This document shows positions 8,964 through 20,879 of a DNA stretch of 64,000 bases, one piece after another. The notes under the pieces were generated by a model. That model saw nothing but the letters and a program-made list of their open reading frames with translations, searched no databases and had not been told where the DNA came from. The stretch is from contig NZ_VIGB01000003.1 of the NCBI RefSeq assembly GCF_006636205.1, forward strand, positions 5,508,501-5,572,500, in the 5' to 3' direction. Positions within the stretch are counted from its first letter, which is position 1, and the number at the start of each line of letters is the position of its first letter. The position numbers were made by a program, and so were the translations under genes. This stretch comes from Kitasatospora acidiphila. Its GTDB lineage: Bacteria > Actinomycetota > Actinomycetes > Streptomycetales > Streptomycetaceae.

Positions 8964-10028
8964 TTGCGCCGTTCAGTAAAGCTCGCCGCGGTGGTGCTCT
9001 CGGGTTCCCTGGGCATCGCCTCGCTCGCCGCTTGCGGCGCAAAGAGCACCAGCACCTCTTCTTCCGCCAGTGGCGGCGGCTCCGGCATCAAGGTCGGTAT
9101 GGCCTACGACGTCGGCGGCCGTGGCGACCAGGGCTTCAACGACTCGGCCGCGGCCGGCCTGGACAGGGCCAAGACGGACTTCGGCATCACCGCCAACGAG
9201 GCCGAGGCCAAGAACGGTGAGTCCGACTCCGACAAGCAGGCCCGTCTGGAGCAGCTGGTCACCGCCGGTTACAACCCGATCATCGCGGTCGGCTTCGTGT
9301 ACCAGCCCGCGGTCGAGAAGGTCGCCAAGGAGCACCCGAACGTCAAGTTCGCGATCATCGACTCCGACTCGCCGACCCAGCCGTCCAACGTGACCTCGCT
9401 GGAGTTCACCGAGCAGCAGAGCTCGTACCTGGCCGGTATCGCCGCCGCCCTGAAGACCCAGAAGAAGCAGGTCGGCTTCATCGGTGGCGTGCAGTCCGAG
9501 CTGATCAAGAAGTTCGAGGCCGGCTACCGGGCCGGTGTGGCCTCCGTCGACCCGAACATCAAGGTCGACGTCACCTACCTGACCACCCCGCCGGACTTCA
9601 CCGGCTTCAGCGACCCGGCCAAGGGCAAGTCCGCCGCGCAGGGCCAGCTGGACAAGGGCGACGACGTGATCTACACCGCCGCCGGCGCCTCCGGCACCGG
9701 TGCGATCCAGGCCGTGGCCGCCAAGCCGGGCACCTGGGCCATCGGTGTCGACTCCGACCAGGCCAAGCAGACCGCGCTGGCCGCCTACAAGAACCAGATC
9801 CTGACCTCTGCGCTGAAGAACGTGGACACCGCGGTGTACTCGTACATCCAGAGCGTCAAGAACGGCACGCCGGAGACCGGCATCCAGCGCTTCGACCTGA
9901 AGTCGGGCGGTGTCGGCCTGGCCACCACCGGCGGCCACATCGACGACATCAAGGCCAAGCTGGACGCTGCCACCCAGCAGATCGTCTCCGGTACGACCCA
10001 GATCCCGACCGCTCCGTCGGCCGGCTGA
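8964..10028 (+). CDS. BMP family nucleoside-binding lipoprotein of an ABC importer
   Basis: Substrate-binding component of a purine/pyrimidine nucleoside importer, anchored outside the membrane. The TTG start has AAGGAG nearby. The signal peptide ends in the lipobox SLAAC, followed by a Ser/Gly-rich tether and the PnrA-like domain opening GIKVGMAYDVGGRGDQGFND, with the typical GFVYQPAVEKVA and FIGGVQS segments. The length of 354 residues is normal. It heads an operon with an ATPase, two permeases and cytidine deaminase, which supports nucleosides as the ligand. The operator-like palindrome about 50 bp upstream ties it to the deo/add genes. Confidence 0.93.
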   Translation: MRRSVKLAAVVLSGSLGIASLAACGAKSTSTSSSASGGGSGIKVGMAYDVGGRGDQGFNDSAAAGLDRAKTDFGITANEAEAKNGESDSDKQARLEQLVTAGYNPIIAVGFVYQPAVEKVAKEHPNVKFAIIDSDSPTQPSNVTSLEFTEQQSSYLAGIAAALKTQKKQVGFIGGVQSELIKKFEAGYRAGVASVDPNIKVDVTYLTTPPDFTGFSDPAKGKSAAQGQLDKGDDVIYTAAGASGTGAIQAVAAKPGTWAIGVDSDQAKQTALAAYKNQILTSALKNVDTAVYSYIQSVKNGTPETGIQRFDLKSGGVGLATTGGHIDDIKAKLDAATQQIVSGTTQIPTAPSAG

Positions 10029-12024: not shown

Positions 12025-13217
12025 CCGAGATGACCACTTCGACCGAACCCTCCCCCAGCCTCCCGCCGGGCGGGGCCTCCAGGCGCGGCTGGCTCCGGCG
12101 GATCGACCGCGAGCGGCTGCTGCTGGCCATCGCGGCACCCGTGCTGGCCGTCATCGTCTCGGTGGCGCTCTGCTCGCTGCTGCTCGCCGTCGCCGGGTAC
12201 AACCCCGGCGAGGCGTTCCGGCTGATGTCCACCTACGGCTTCGCCTCCGATGGGCAGGTGGCGATCCTCAACAAGGCGACCACCTACTACATCGCCGGTG
12301 TCGCGGTGGCCTTCGGCTTCCGGATGAACCTGTTCAACATCGGTGCCGACGGCCAGTACCGGCTCGCCGCGCTGTTCGCCGCCTTCGTCGGCGGCGCGGT
12401 GGACCTGCCGTCGTTCATCGAGATCCCGCTGGTGCTGATCACCGCCATGCTGGTCGGCGGCCTGTGGGCGGCCATCGCCGGTGTCCTCAAGGTCACCCGC
12501 GGGGTCAGCGAGGTGATCTCGACGATCATGCTGAACGCGATCACCACCGGTGTCATCGGCCTGCTGCTGGTGCCCGGCCGTTTCGCGCCGAGCGTCAGCA
12601 GCGGCAGCAGCAACAGCATCCAGACCAAGATGATGGCCCCGTCCAGCAACTTCTTCACCTTCAGCACCATGGGCGGCCAGCTCTACGGCTTCATCATCAT
12701 CGCGGTGGTGATCGGTGTGCTGTTCCAGCTGACCCTGAGTCGCACCCGGTTCGGCTTCGACCTGCGGGCCACCGGGCGCTCCGAGGAGGCGGCCGGCGCC
12801 AGCGGCGTCAACGTCAAGCGCATGGTGCTGACCAGCATGTGCGTCTCTGGTGCGCTGGCCGGTCTGATCGGCATGCCGGACCTGCTGTCCGCGGACACCG
12901 GCCACTACTTCGGTCAGAGCTTCCAGGCCGGTATCGGCTTCACCGGCATCGCGATCGCACTGCTCGGCCGCAACACCCCGGTCGGCATCGCCTTTGCGAC
13001 GCTGCTCTGGGCCTTCCTGGACGCCACCGCCGGGCAGCTGTCGACGAACAACTTCCCGCCGGAGATCATCGACGTCATGAAGGGCACCATCGTCATCTGC
13101 GTGGTCGTCGCCTACGAGCTGGTCCGCCGCTTCGGGCTGAAGCGCCAGCAGCAGAAGGTCGGCGCCCAGCTCGCCGCTCAGGCCGCCGCGGCGGCGAAGA
13201 AGGAGGTGGCGGCATGA
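12021..13217 (+). CDS. Nucleoside ABC importer permease (first)
   Basis: Membrane subunit of the importer, BPD_transp_2 type like those of BMP systems. It has several hydrophobic helices, and the family's GFRMNLFNIGADGQY segment near residue 100 and the GVSEVISTIMLNAI segment are clear. The GTG start overlaps the ATPase stop as GTGA, and its own stop overlaps the next permease as ATGA, so all four genes are translationally coupled. Length 398 residues. The C-terminus ends in a Gln/Lys/Ala-rich cytoplasmic tail. Confidence 0.92.
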
Positions 13218-14485
13218 GCACCGCGACCGAGACCCGTCCCAAGCCGGCCGGCAAGGCGCCGGCCAAGGGCGCCAAGAAGCTCTCCTGGCCGATCGTGCTG
13301 CTGCTGTCGGCCGGTGCCCTGGTGCTGTTCTCGGTGGTCGGCATGATCACCGGGAACCACAGCCTGACCTCCTCCGGCCAGGTCTCCGCCGCGCTCGGCG
13401 CCGCAGTGCCGATCGGCATGGCCGGCCTCGGCGGCCTCTGGTCCGAGCGGGCCGGCGTGGTCAACATCGGCCTCGAAGGCATGATGGTGGCCGGCACCTT
13501 CGCCGGCGCCTGGACCGGCTACCTGGTCAACCCCTGGGTCGGCCTGCTGGCCGGCATGGCGGCGGGCGCGCTCGGCGGCCTGCTGCACGCGGTGATCACG
13601 GTCGGCTTCGGCGTCGACCACATCGTCTCCGGTGTCGGCATCAACCTGCTGATCCCCGGTCTGTGCCTGTACATCAACCGGATCTACTACACGGACTACA
13701 TCAGCGCCGGTGCCGGTGCCTCCAAGTCCCCGCCGACCCAGCCGCTGCCGTTCATCACCGTGCAGCACCTGTCGCAGTGGCTGGACAGCGTCGAGGGCCA
13801 CCACTGGTTCCTGATCTCGGACCTGGCCGGCGTGGTCGGCGGTCTGGTCACCAACCTCTCGGTGGTCACGCTGATCGCGGCCGCCCTGCTGGTCGCCAGC
13901 TACTTCATCCTGTGGCGGACCACCTTCGGCCTGCGGCTGCGCTCCTGCGGTGAGAACCCGACCGCCGCCGAGTCGCTGGGCGTCAACGTCTACAAGTACA
14001 AGTACATCGCGGTGATCGCCTCCGGTGGCTTCGCCGGCCTGGGCGGTGCCTACCTGTCGATGGTCGCGGCCAACGTCTTCCAGGACGGGCAGACCGGCGG
14101 CCGCGGCTACATCGGTCTGGCCGCGATGATCTTCGGTAACTGGCTGCCCGGCGGGCTGGCCACCGGCGCGGGCCTGTTCGGCTTCACCGACAGCCTGCAG
14201 CTGCGCGACCCGAGCTCGGTGCACGTGCTGCTGCTGGTCGTCTCGATCGTCCTGGCGCTGCTGGGCCTGTGGAACCTGTACCGCCGCAAGTGGGTCGGTG
14301 CCGCGGTCACCCTGGTGGCGTCCGGTGCGCTGGCGCTCTGGTACGCCTCCACCAGCACCGTGGAGCGTCCGCTGATCGTGGCCTCGCCGTACGTCATCAC
14401 CCTGGTGGTGCTGGCGCTCTCGGCCCAGCGGCTGCGCCCGCCGAAGGCGGACGGCCAGATCTACCGCAAGGGCCAGGGCAAGTGA
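13214..14485 (+). CDS. Nucleoside ABC importer permease (second)
   Basis: Second membrane subunit (423 residues), paired with the preceding permease to form the channel. ATG at 13214 overlaps the previous stop (ATGA). After a Lys/Ala-rich cytoplasmic leader come multiple membrane spans; the family motif LWSERAGVVNIGLEGMMVAG and the loop CGENPTAAESLGVNVYKYKY are both present. The stop overlaps the cytidine deaminase start as GTGA. The larger extracytoplasmic loop (about residues 155-200) is longer than I would expect in short homologues, which may be a lineage feature. Confidence 0.92.
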   Translation: MSTATETRPKPAGKAPAKGAKKLSWPIVLLLSAGALVLFSVVGMITGNHSLTSSGQVSAALGAAVPIGMAGLGGLWSERAGVVNIGLEGMMVAGTFAGAWTGYLVNPWVGLLAGMAAGALGGLLHAVITVGFGVDHIVSGVGINLLIPGLCLYINRIYYTDYISAGAGASKSPPTQPLPFITVQHLSQWLDSVEGHHWFLISDLAGVVGGLVTNLSVVTLIAAALLVASYFILWRTTFGLRLRSCGENPTAAESLGVNVYKYKYIAVIASGGFAGLGGAYLSMVAANVFQDGQTGGRGYIGLAAMIFGNWLPGGLATGAGLFGFTDSLQLRDPSSVHVLLLVVSIVLALLGLWNLYRRKWVGAAVTLVASGALALWYASTSTVERPLIVASPYVITLVVLALSAQRLRPPKADGQIYRKGQGK

Positions 14486-18412: not shown

Positions 18413-18440
18413 CCATTCCATGCGTCCAATACATGAATGG
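18413..18440. promoter_or_regulatory. Candidate LysR operator between the divergent MFS and regulator genes
   Basis: CCATTCCATG (18413-18422) and CATGAATGG (18432-18440) form an inverted repeat with a one-base indel, separated by nine bases. It lies in the short gap between divergent starts, the normal place for a LysR-type binding site. The adjacent GATAAT (18443-18448) may be the regulator's own -10. Confidence 0.5.
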
Positions 18441-18458
18441 GCGATAATCAATGCTGTG

Positions 18459-19448
18459 ATGCATGAGCGGTCCCAGTCGGCGTCGGCCCAGTCCGCGTTG
18501 GCCCAGCCTTCGTTGGCCCAGCCTTCGTTCGAGCTCGGCCCCGATGCCCCGGGCGTCATCCTGGCGCCCCGGCTGGCCCAGTTCGCCGCCGTGGCGCGAC
18601 TGGAGCACATCACCCGGGCCGCGGAGGAACTGGGCATGCCGCAGCCCACGCTGTCCCGAGCGATCGCCCGGTTGGAGGCGGAGCTGGGGGTCGCCCTGCT
18701 GGCCCGGCAGGGCCGCGCGGTGCGGCTGACCAGGGCGGGTCGGCTGCTGCTCGACGCGGTCGAGCGGGCGCTGGCCGAGCTGGACCGGGGCGCGGCGGCG
18801 ATGCTGGCCGAGACCGACCCGGCGAGCGGCCGGGTGGCCTTCGGGTTTCTCCACACCATGGGGACGGATGCGGTCCCGGCGCTGCTGCGCGGCTTCAGGG
18901 CCGACCATCCGGGGGTGAGGTTCCAACTGGTGCAGGACTATGTGGCGGCGATGCTGGAACGGCTGCGCGCCGGTGAGCTGGACCTCTGCCTGGTCTCGCC
19001 GATTCCGTCCGAGCCCGAGTTGACGGCCCGCCAACTGGACGAGCAGCAGCTTTACTTGGCGGTTCCGGCCGACCACCGGCTGGCGGTGCGGCGGCGGATC
19101 CGGCTGGCGGAGGCGGCGGAGGAGCCGTTCGTCGCGGTGGAGTACGGCTACGGGCTGCGCACCATCACGGACGAGTTCTGCGCCCAGGCCGGCTTCACTC
19201 CGCGGATCGCCTTCGAGGGTGAGGACACCGAGACGCTGCGCGGCTTGGTCGCGGCCGGGCTCGGGGTGGCGCTGCTGCCGCCGGGTCTGGTGCCGCGGCC
19301 CGGGGTGGTCGAGCTGGCGGTGACGGCGCCGCGCACCCGGCGGGCGATCGGGCTCGCCTGGGTGACCGGCCGGCCGCTGCCGCCGCCAGCCGAGGCGTTC
19401 CGCGACTTCGTGCTCGCTCGGCGGGGGCGGTTGTTGGATCACGGGTGA
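18459..19448 (+). CDS. LysR family transcriptional regulator
   Basis: DNA-binding regulator of about 330 residues. The N-terminal winged helix is clear (FAAVARLEHITRAAEELGMPQPTLSRAIARLEAELG), followed by the effector-binding domain with typical segments such as LDLCLVSP and VAAGLGVALLPPG. ATG at 18459 is chosen; a frame from 18420 would run through the candidate operator. The 25 residues before the HTH are a short Ser/Ala/Gln repeat (SAQSALAQPSLAQPS), longer than usual. It is expected to control the divergent MFS-Uma2 pair and itself. Confidence 0.9.
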   Translation: MHERSQSASAQSALAQPSLAQPSFELGPDAPGVILAPRLAQFAAVARLEHITRAAEELGMPQPTLSRAIARLEAELGVALLARQGRAVRLTRAGRLLLDAVERALAELDRGAAAMLAETDPASGRVAFGFLHTMGTDAVPALLRGFRADHPGVRFQLVQDYVAAMLERLRAGELDLCLVSPIPSEPELTARQLDEQQLYLAVPADHRLAVRRRIRLAEAAEEPFVAVEYGYGLRTITDEFCAQAGFTPRIAFEGEDTETLRGLVAAGLGVALLPPGLVPRPGVVELAVTAPRTRRAIGLAWVTGRPLPPPAEAFRDFVLARRGRLLDHG

Positions 19449-19461
19449 CGGGGCGAGGGTT

Positions 19462-19664
19462 AATAATGCCCATTATTGCAGCCTGCTTGTCGCGGCGTGG
19501 GGTGCGCGAGTGGGTTGTTAATAATGGGCATTATTAGCGCCCACTGCCGGTTTGGGTGAGGCGCCGGGCCCCGGCGTGGGCGGGGTTCCAGGCTGGGGGC
19601 AGATAGCGGTTCAGGAAATGCTAATGGCCATTATTAATGAGCCGCATTAATAATGGCCAATACC
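19462..19664. promoter_or_regulatory. Array of four AT-rich palindromes, consensus AATAATG-N2-CATTATT
   Basis: Site A at 19462-19477 (AATAATG-CC-CATTATT) and site B at 19520-19535 (AATAATG-GG-CATTATT, extending one base each side) are perfect. Site C at 19620-19635 keeps CATTATT and a TAATGGCCATTA core. Site D at 19649-19664 keeps AATAATG. They fill the gap between the LysR gene and add, in DNA otherwise over 65% GC. This is likely a multi-site operator for an unknown regulator; nothing in the window obviously encodes it. Confidence 0.7.
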
Positions 19665-19695: not shown

Positions 19696-19725
19696 TTGGG
19701 TATCTACGCGCGTAGGGCTTAGACT
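19696..19725 (+). promoter_or_regulatory. add promoter with perfect CTACGCGCGTAG operator in the spacer
   Basis: TTGGGT (19696-19701) and TAGACT (19720-19725) are 18 bp apart and can serve as -35 and -10. The palindrome at 19704-19715 lies fully inside the spacer, as expected for a repressor site. The -10 is six bases before the ATG, so the mRNA is probably leaderless. Confidence 0.65.
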
Positions 19726-19731
19726 CCCGCA

Positions 19732-20879
19732 ATGCAGAAGCAGATCCCTCTCCCCGCGGGCACCACGGCCCCGCGCATCCCCACCGCCGAGCAGATCCGC
19801 CGCGCCCCAAGGTCGTGCTGCACGACCACCTGGACGGCGGCCTCCGCCCCGAGACGATCGTCGAGCTCGCCGCCGCCTGCGGCTACCAGAAGCTGCCCAC
19901 CACCGACCCGGCCAAGCTGGGCATCTGGTTCCGCGAGGCCGCCGACTCCGGCTCGCTGGAGCGCTACCTGGAGACCTTCGCGCACACCTGCGCCGTGATG
20001 CAGACCCGCGAGGGCCTGGTCCGCGTCGCCGCCGAGGCCGCCGAGGACCTGGCCGCCGACGGCGTGGTCTACGCCGAGGTGCGCTACGCCCCCGAGCAGC
20101 ACCTGGAGGGCGGCCTGACCCTGGACGAGGTGGTCGAGGCGGTCCAGGAGGGCTTCCGGATCGGCGAGGCCAACGCCCGCGCCAACGGCGACCGGATCAA
20201 GGTGGGCACCCTGATCACCGCCATGCGCCACGCCGCCCGCTCCCAGGAGATCGCCGAGCTGGCCAACCGCCACCGCGACACCGGCGTGGTCGGCTTCGAC
20301 ATCGCCGGTGCCGAGGCCGGCTTCCCGCCCACCCGCCACCAGGCCGCCTTCGACTACCTCAAGGGCGAGAACAACCACTTCACCATCCACGCCGGTGAGG
20401 CCTTCGGGCTGCCGTCGATCTGGGAGGCGCTGCAGTGCTGCGGCGCGGACCGGCTCGGTCACGGCGTGCGGATCACCGACGACATCACCGTGCACGACGA
20501 CGGCACCGTGACGCTCGGCCGGCTGGCCGCCTACGTCCGGGACAAGCGGATCCCGCTGGAGATGTGCCCCACCTCCAACCTGCAGACCGGTGCCGCCAGT
20601 TCCTACGCCGAGCACCCGATCGGCCTGCTCACCCGCCTGAAGTACCGGGTCACCGTGAACACCGACAACCGGCTGATGAGCGGCACCAGCATGAGCCAGG
20701 AGTTCGCCCACCTGATCGAGGCGTTCGGCTACGACCTGGACGACATGCAGTGGTTCACCGTCAACGCGCTGAAGTCGGCGTTCCTGCCGTTCGACGAGCG
20801 GCTGGCGATGATCAACGACGTGGTCAAGCCCGGCTATGCCGAGCTGAAGGCCGAGTGGCTGTTCGGCTCCTCGTCCTGA
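19732..20879 (+). CDS. add: Adenosine deaminase, with an apparent one-base frameshift near 19805-19808
   Basis: Deaminates adenosine and deoxyadenosine to inosine forms. Reading from ATG at 19732 gives [16 protein letters not shown]...AEQIRRAP, which then leaves frame; the next frame continues at once with [17 protein letters not shown]. Adding one C to the CCCC at 19805-19808 restores a protein of about 382 residues. Metal and catalytic motifs are intact: [43 protein letters not shown] and [13 protein letters not shown] start at GTG 19815 would lose the first beta strand just before the HxH motif. A base-calling error is more likely than decay. Operator and AT-rich palindromes lie upstream. 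Confidence 0.88.

Follow-up and report, generated by a model that had tools for sequence, protein, structure and literature searches.

The palindromes that lie between a lysR-family regulator gene and add, the adenosine deaminase gene, in Kitasatospora acidiphila are probably an operator cluster of one autoregulated TetR-family repressor, the arrays of which have multiplied and, at this locus, may lower add transcription. The array was analysed within a window of 64,000 nucleotides (the whole stretch of DNA under analysis) of the 8.58 Mb genome under study, G000. Scanning the window with the pattern AATAATGNNCATTATT, with up to three mismatches allowed, gave matches to AATAATG-NN-CATTATT at positions 19462, 19520, 19620 and 19649 with 0, 0, 2 and 3 mismatches, respectively; the pattern never matched when the window was shuffled 100 times with dinucleotide content preserved. 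These results bear out an earlier sequence-only reading, which had described two perfect and two partial palindromes upstream of add, had considered a chance origin very unlikely and had given centre-to-centre distances of 58, 100 and 29 bp, the same values being obtained on recount.

Operators 1 (19462..19477; extended form GTTAATAATGCCCATTATTGCA) and 2 (19520..19535; GTTAATAATGGGCATTATTAGC) are both perfect, with position-weight scores of 36.4 and 42.3, the latter being the highest in the array. Operator 3 (19620..19635; two mismatches) scored 33.4 and the degenerate operator 4 (19649..19664; three mismatches) 17.4. Since operators 3 and 4 form the left and right arms of a larger inverted repeat of 45 bp (19620..19664; 18-nt arms, 94%), inside which additional overlapping half-sites occur at 19633 and 19636, this segment was taken to be a nested operator. 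The array as a whole spans 68–270 bp upstream of the add start, with site centres 262, 204, 104 and 75 bp from the ATG, and helical phasing was not seen in the centre spacings. In all likelihood the sites are protein-binding operators, and their clustering suggests joint occupancy. Reading the palindromes as RNA hairpins appeared unlikely by inspection (AT stem, 2-nt centre), and the small transcript that had been envisaged in the lysR-add gap is unnecessary to account for the array.

The motif had initially been reported as resembling no recognisable operator, a statement that no longer holds, as its probable owner was found in a TetR-family gene encoding P0001 (230 amino acids; G000:C3:1712281-1712970, minus strand), 3.8 Mb from the add array. 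The operator of this gene is TTAATAATG-NN-CAKYATTAA, that is, with a right half CA(T/G)(T/C)ATTAA, and the sites of the add array match it. Relatives were represented by a family sample of 395 genomes and a genus set of 70 genomes, and in relatives with one site, that site is at the 5' end of the TetR-family gene. Orthologues of this gene (tetR) were present in 20 of the 70 genus genomes and had the operator directly ahead of the start codon in 19 of these 20, the single exception being G107. Gene and site were each found in 20 genus genomes and together in 19 (Fisher p = 6e-15); G100, which has the site and lacks a full tetR match, contains a degraded TetR at that place. In other genera, a site was present in 23 genomes; 18 of these also have the tetR gene, with the site within ~30 bp of it in 18/18, and in the remaining five, which lack the gene, the sites are poor matches. 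Because the operator is kept beside tetR orthologues and the same motif recurs at add, the add array very probably consists of operators of this repressor, and binding of the TetR-family protein to it is predicted with high confidence. As judged from sequence, comparative support for this putative regulator-operator pair is about as strong as such evidence gets.

P0001 contains a TetR_N domain (PF00440, 3.5e-09, 36.7 bits against a cut-off of 24). Its predicted fold is all-helical and TetR-like (pLDDT 82.7; model m11c662da8f98), with TetR-family entries as the closest structure matches, and an NCBIfam profile search provided no close family name that applies, the top match, far below threshold, being RefZ. 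In G000 and in two relatives, G051 and G054, ridA is divergent from tetR at a distance of ~200 bp or more, compared with the spacing of less than 200 bp looked for in a divergent neighbour of an autorepressor gene; other tetR orthologues have an SDR gene in the same orientation next to them. We infer that P0001 is a repressor and propose that its DNA binding would be relieved by a ligand; given the RidA, SDR and efflux neighbours, this ligand may be a small molecule that is reactive or toxic.

A search for the 16-mer in the genome and in relatives, which the sequence-only reading had recommended, identified 17 sites with no more than two mismatches in the whole G000 genome, where a reversed control pattern gave none, and further sites in relatives. 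The extended consensus of the sites is TTAATAATG-SS-CATTATTAA, with one half frequently CAGCATT or CAGTATT. Most of the G000 sites are clustered, namely at tetR/ridA (1.713 Mb), at 1.833 Mb, at accDA (1.861 Mb), at an NRPS gene (2.080 Mb, five sites), at a glycosyltransferase locus (2.692 Mb) and at add (5.528 Mb); lone sites are present at 2.638 Mb and 4.698 Mb, and 0.764 Mb holds a further one that is weaker. A weaker G000 site (L191, position 7365) overlaps a possible start codon.

Multi-site arrays were identified in three species only among the 395 family genomes, those represented by G000, G051 and G054. The tetR-ridA array is common to all three, the accDA and add arrays to G000 and G051, and an array upstream of a marR-DrrA-like ABC efflux operon to G051 and G054 (genes in the retrieved loci were called with a simple composition-based script). 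The lysR-add gap of G051 contains four sites in the same place as in G000, so that the array is not the strain-specific repeat that had been raised as a possibility. The spacers are mostly unalignable, and in the alignment G051 keeps the left part of the nested repeat, TGCTAATGNNCATTATTAATG...GCATTAAT. No site was found at 28 other add loci of the genus. The lysR-add gap measures 283 bp in G000 and 460 bp in G051, and mostly 60–120 bp at genus loci that have the lysR orthologue directly upstream and no array. Spread of a single mobile array to all these loci was ruled out, as the spacers share nothing beyond ~32 nt. A literature search by title and abstract found no description of operator arrays of this kind.

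Several further features were observed at these loci. One G054 array (L029) is located between converging genes, a setting that offers no obvious target for regulation. At L042 of G000 (12819-13340) the array persists next to a polyketide-type cluster, and the marR-ABC operon has been lost, in comparison with the relatives' loci L026 and L186; by its sequence, this locus appears to be a replacement event. The marR genes of G051 and G054 are preceded by a second conserved near-palindrome, TTAGCTCTCANTGAGAGATAA, before the start (L026, ~9000-9029; L186, ~9620-9660), which is probably MarR's own operator. In L187 of G054 (9308-9323), the ATG of a gene encoding a metallo-beta-lactamase-fold protein lies within the operator AATAATGGCCAGCATTACT, such that start codon and operator coincide. 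A single good operator match in L035 of G054 (6740) overlaps the region encoding the phosphorylation site of a response regulator (DLRMPIING) and could be due to chance or be a new intragenic site.

Arrays were also located inside reading frames. In accDA, which encodes fused carboxyltransferase subunits, four palindromes lie in frame within the interdomain linker, the length of which is 231 nt in G000 and 249 nt in G051. Close orthologues in other species, including G054, have linkers of 54–111 nt from which the palindromes are absent, and they are also absent from the linkers of 201 and 177 nt in the distant homologues of G037 and G033 (~46–61% identical). Between G000 and G051, the accDA palindromes are identical at 66/80 positions (82%) and the remaining linker at 61/140 (44%); in these copies TTC mostly replaces the outer TTA where the frame would make a stop. 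The NRPS gene contains five palindromes in frame in a loop of an adenylation domain, where they separate motifs A2 and A3, which stand 189 residues apart; in GrsA this distance is about 85 residues. In-frame palindromes are likewise present in an ABC exporter gene of G054, in the linker between TMD and NBD. The accDA frame reads the palindrome as NNxHY, and that of the NRPS and ABC genes reads it as LIMxI, which rules out a conserved peptide; since the encoded peptides differ between genes, it is the DNA that has been kept and not the protein. Conservation of the operator in two reading frames across different genes, amid linker sequence that can vary freely, argues for selection on DNA binding inside a gene. 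The in-frame accDA, NRPS and ABC arrays thus place the operator in a transcribed region, as expected of a roadblock.

At the add locus, the upstream neighbour is the lysR-family regulator gene (18420..19448, plus strand), which is transcribed in the same direction as add and the stop codon of which is 13 bp ahead of operator 1; its orthologue in G051 contains Pfam LysR domains (96.7% identity). The single gene downstream of the array is add (19732..20879, plus strand), an orthologue of which matched Pfam A_deaminase (1e-103) and also the NCBIfam adenosine deaminase profile. The add frame is broken once near 19805-19808 by an apparent single-base frameshift in a C run, and the orthologues in G051 and others are intact. 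As the NRPS gene at G000:C3 2.08 Mb contains similar apparent frameshifts, an assembly indel is the likely cause, and gene integrity near 19805 of add and in the NRPS gene should not be over-read from these apparent single-base shifts in the assembly.

The conserved core promoter of add (19704..19725, plus strand) comprises a palindrome, CTACGCGCGTAG (19704-19715), and the -10-like TAGACT (19720-19725), the spacing of which fits a leaderless transcript from the ATG. All 21/21 genus promoters extracted, array or not, have the block TCTACGCGCGTAGG ... TACACTCCCGCAATG in identical or almost identical form. The array does not overlap this core promoter and leaves it intact, and its position outside the array gives no indication that add is controlled by classical occlusion of the promoter. 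Situated between the -35 and -10 positions, CTACGCGCGTAG is invariant in all 21 promoters extracted and may be a second, older operator of another regulator.

The following mechanism is proposed. Dimers of P0001 would bind TTAATAATG-NN-CA(T/G)(T/C)ATTAA, and a single site by the protein's own start codon would represent the ancestral state, which is strongly supported by comparison. As the sequences show, the site was multiplied into arrays at other loci, including add, in the lineage of G000, G051 and G054. Bound dimers may lower transcription into add in one or both of two ways, by blocking RNA polymerase arriving from lysR or by assembling a repressing complex immediately ahead of the add promoter; a small ligand would free the repressor from the array. 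A protein roadblock or an upstream repressing complex would be the best-fitting action at add, with the roadblock favoured because three arrays are intragenic and polymerase travelling from lysR to add would have to cross the array there. A promoter-occlusion operator was ruled out as the rule for all arrays, as some are intragenic or separate two converging genes. We regard it as somewhat probable that add expression depends on the TetR protein or the array, and as evenly balanced that the effect is repression; that repression would work specifically through a roadblock of elongating polymerase is a tentative suggestion. It is similarly doubtful, though conceivable, that the TetR regulon has been extended through in-frame operator arrays in linkers and loops as a chain of roadblocks, with add as the intergenic version.

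Other explanations were weighed against an operator cluster acting on add. Expansion limited to one lineage, and array positions (linkers, loops and intergenic gaps) that all tolerate insertion, would suit a selfish or passively spreading repeat that settled at tolerant places and is regulatory only at tetR, and intragenic binding sites may be inert, as described for PhoB (PMC10294691). Such a repeat is nevertheless unlikely, given its low copy number, flanks without a constant REP-type tag, the lack of spacer sequence common to different arrays beyond ~32 nt, the divergence of spacers in the face of conserved palindromes and a motif that is exactly the older TetR operator. Less likely still is that the same TetR protein uses the arrays in chromosome organisation or division-site marking and not in the control of neighbouring genes. 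Most genomes have one site, adjoining the protein's own gene, nearly all relatives lack arrays and the G000 sites (0.76–5.53 Mb) are not evenly placed around dnaA (4.49 Mb), even though arrays inside genes and between converging genes would be compatible with such a role and RefZ, a TetR-family protein, positions the septum through a few palindromic motifs (PMC6657595). RefZ was also the top NCBIfam match of P0001, but a sub-threshold score of 38.3 bits against a cut-off of 180 reflects mere shared similarity of the DNA-binding domain. Least likely is that the arrays are decoys titrating the TetR repressor and tuning its autoregulation without control of adjacent genes, since the same loci (tetR-ridA, marR-ABC, accDA and add) recur in two or three species, which titration alone does not need, despite the few genomes that hold many strong sites and the sites without a clear promoter nearby.

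Regulator sites inside genes are usually viewed as noise or as a by-product of codon choice. What is new in the preferred reading, that of multiplied TetR operators, is the unusual addition of in-frame arrays of one repressor operator inside coding genes, as well as upstream of add. This provides a clean natural system in which to test whether cells use roadblocks to elongation as a means of regulation, and it shows a route by which a repressor may gain targets with the core promoter untouched. It also names a regulator with candidate targets, comprising acyl-CoA carboxylase, NRPS, efflux operons and adenosine deaminase, in hosts that are relatives of antibiotic producers.

Among known systems, RefZ and the RefZ-binding motifs of Bacillus (PMC6657595) share with the present case a TetR-family protein and a handful of dispersed palindromic sites; here, however, the ancestral site is at the protein's own promoter. 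The conserved spacing to either side of oriC that marks the RefZ motifs was absent, with sites at 0.76, 1.71, 1.83, 1.86, 2.08, 2.64, 2.69, 4.70 and 5.53 Mb relative to dnaA at 4.49 Mb, and together with the profile score this speaks against a RefZ-like system. REP and Rickettsia palindromic elements are also short palindromes that are either intergenic or part of a reading frame, from which the present sites differ in their few copies, the lack of a GTAG/CGTC tag, unrelated spacers and the sequence of an older operator; with 17 sites in 8.6 Mb and no shared flank beyond the operator, neither REP-type high copy number nor a constant tag or boundary was found. Roadblocks by PurR and CodY involve no more than two sites each, and the coding sequence that contains them is native, whereas here protein linkers have gained an entire in-frame stretch with multiple sites, the blocking action of which is a prediction. 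The precedents, PurR at purB (He and Zalkin, 1992) and CodY (Belitsky and Sonenshein, 2011), both as cited in PMC10294691 and PMC4760761, share with the present arrays a site downstream of the promoter or inside coding sequence. Intragenic PhoB sites were found to be unconserved and inert (PMC10294691), in contrast to the sites described here, which are conserved. Streptomycete TetR autorepressors (TetR/tetO, ActR and SimR; PMC3511530) have in common with P0001 the TetR_N domain and a palindromic operator by their own gene, as well as, in three genomes here, a divergent enzyme gene (ridA, at ~200 bp or more). Unlike these, the present system has 3–5 operators per target over 150–500 bp and many targets beyond the tetR locus, with several of its arrays within reading frames.
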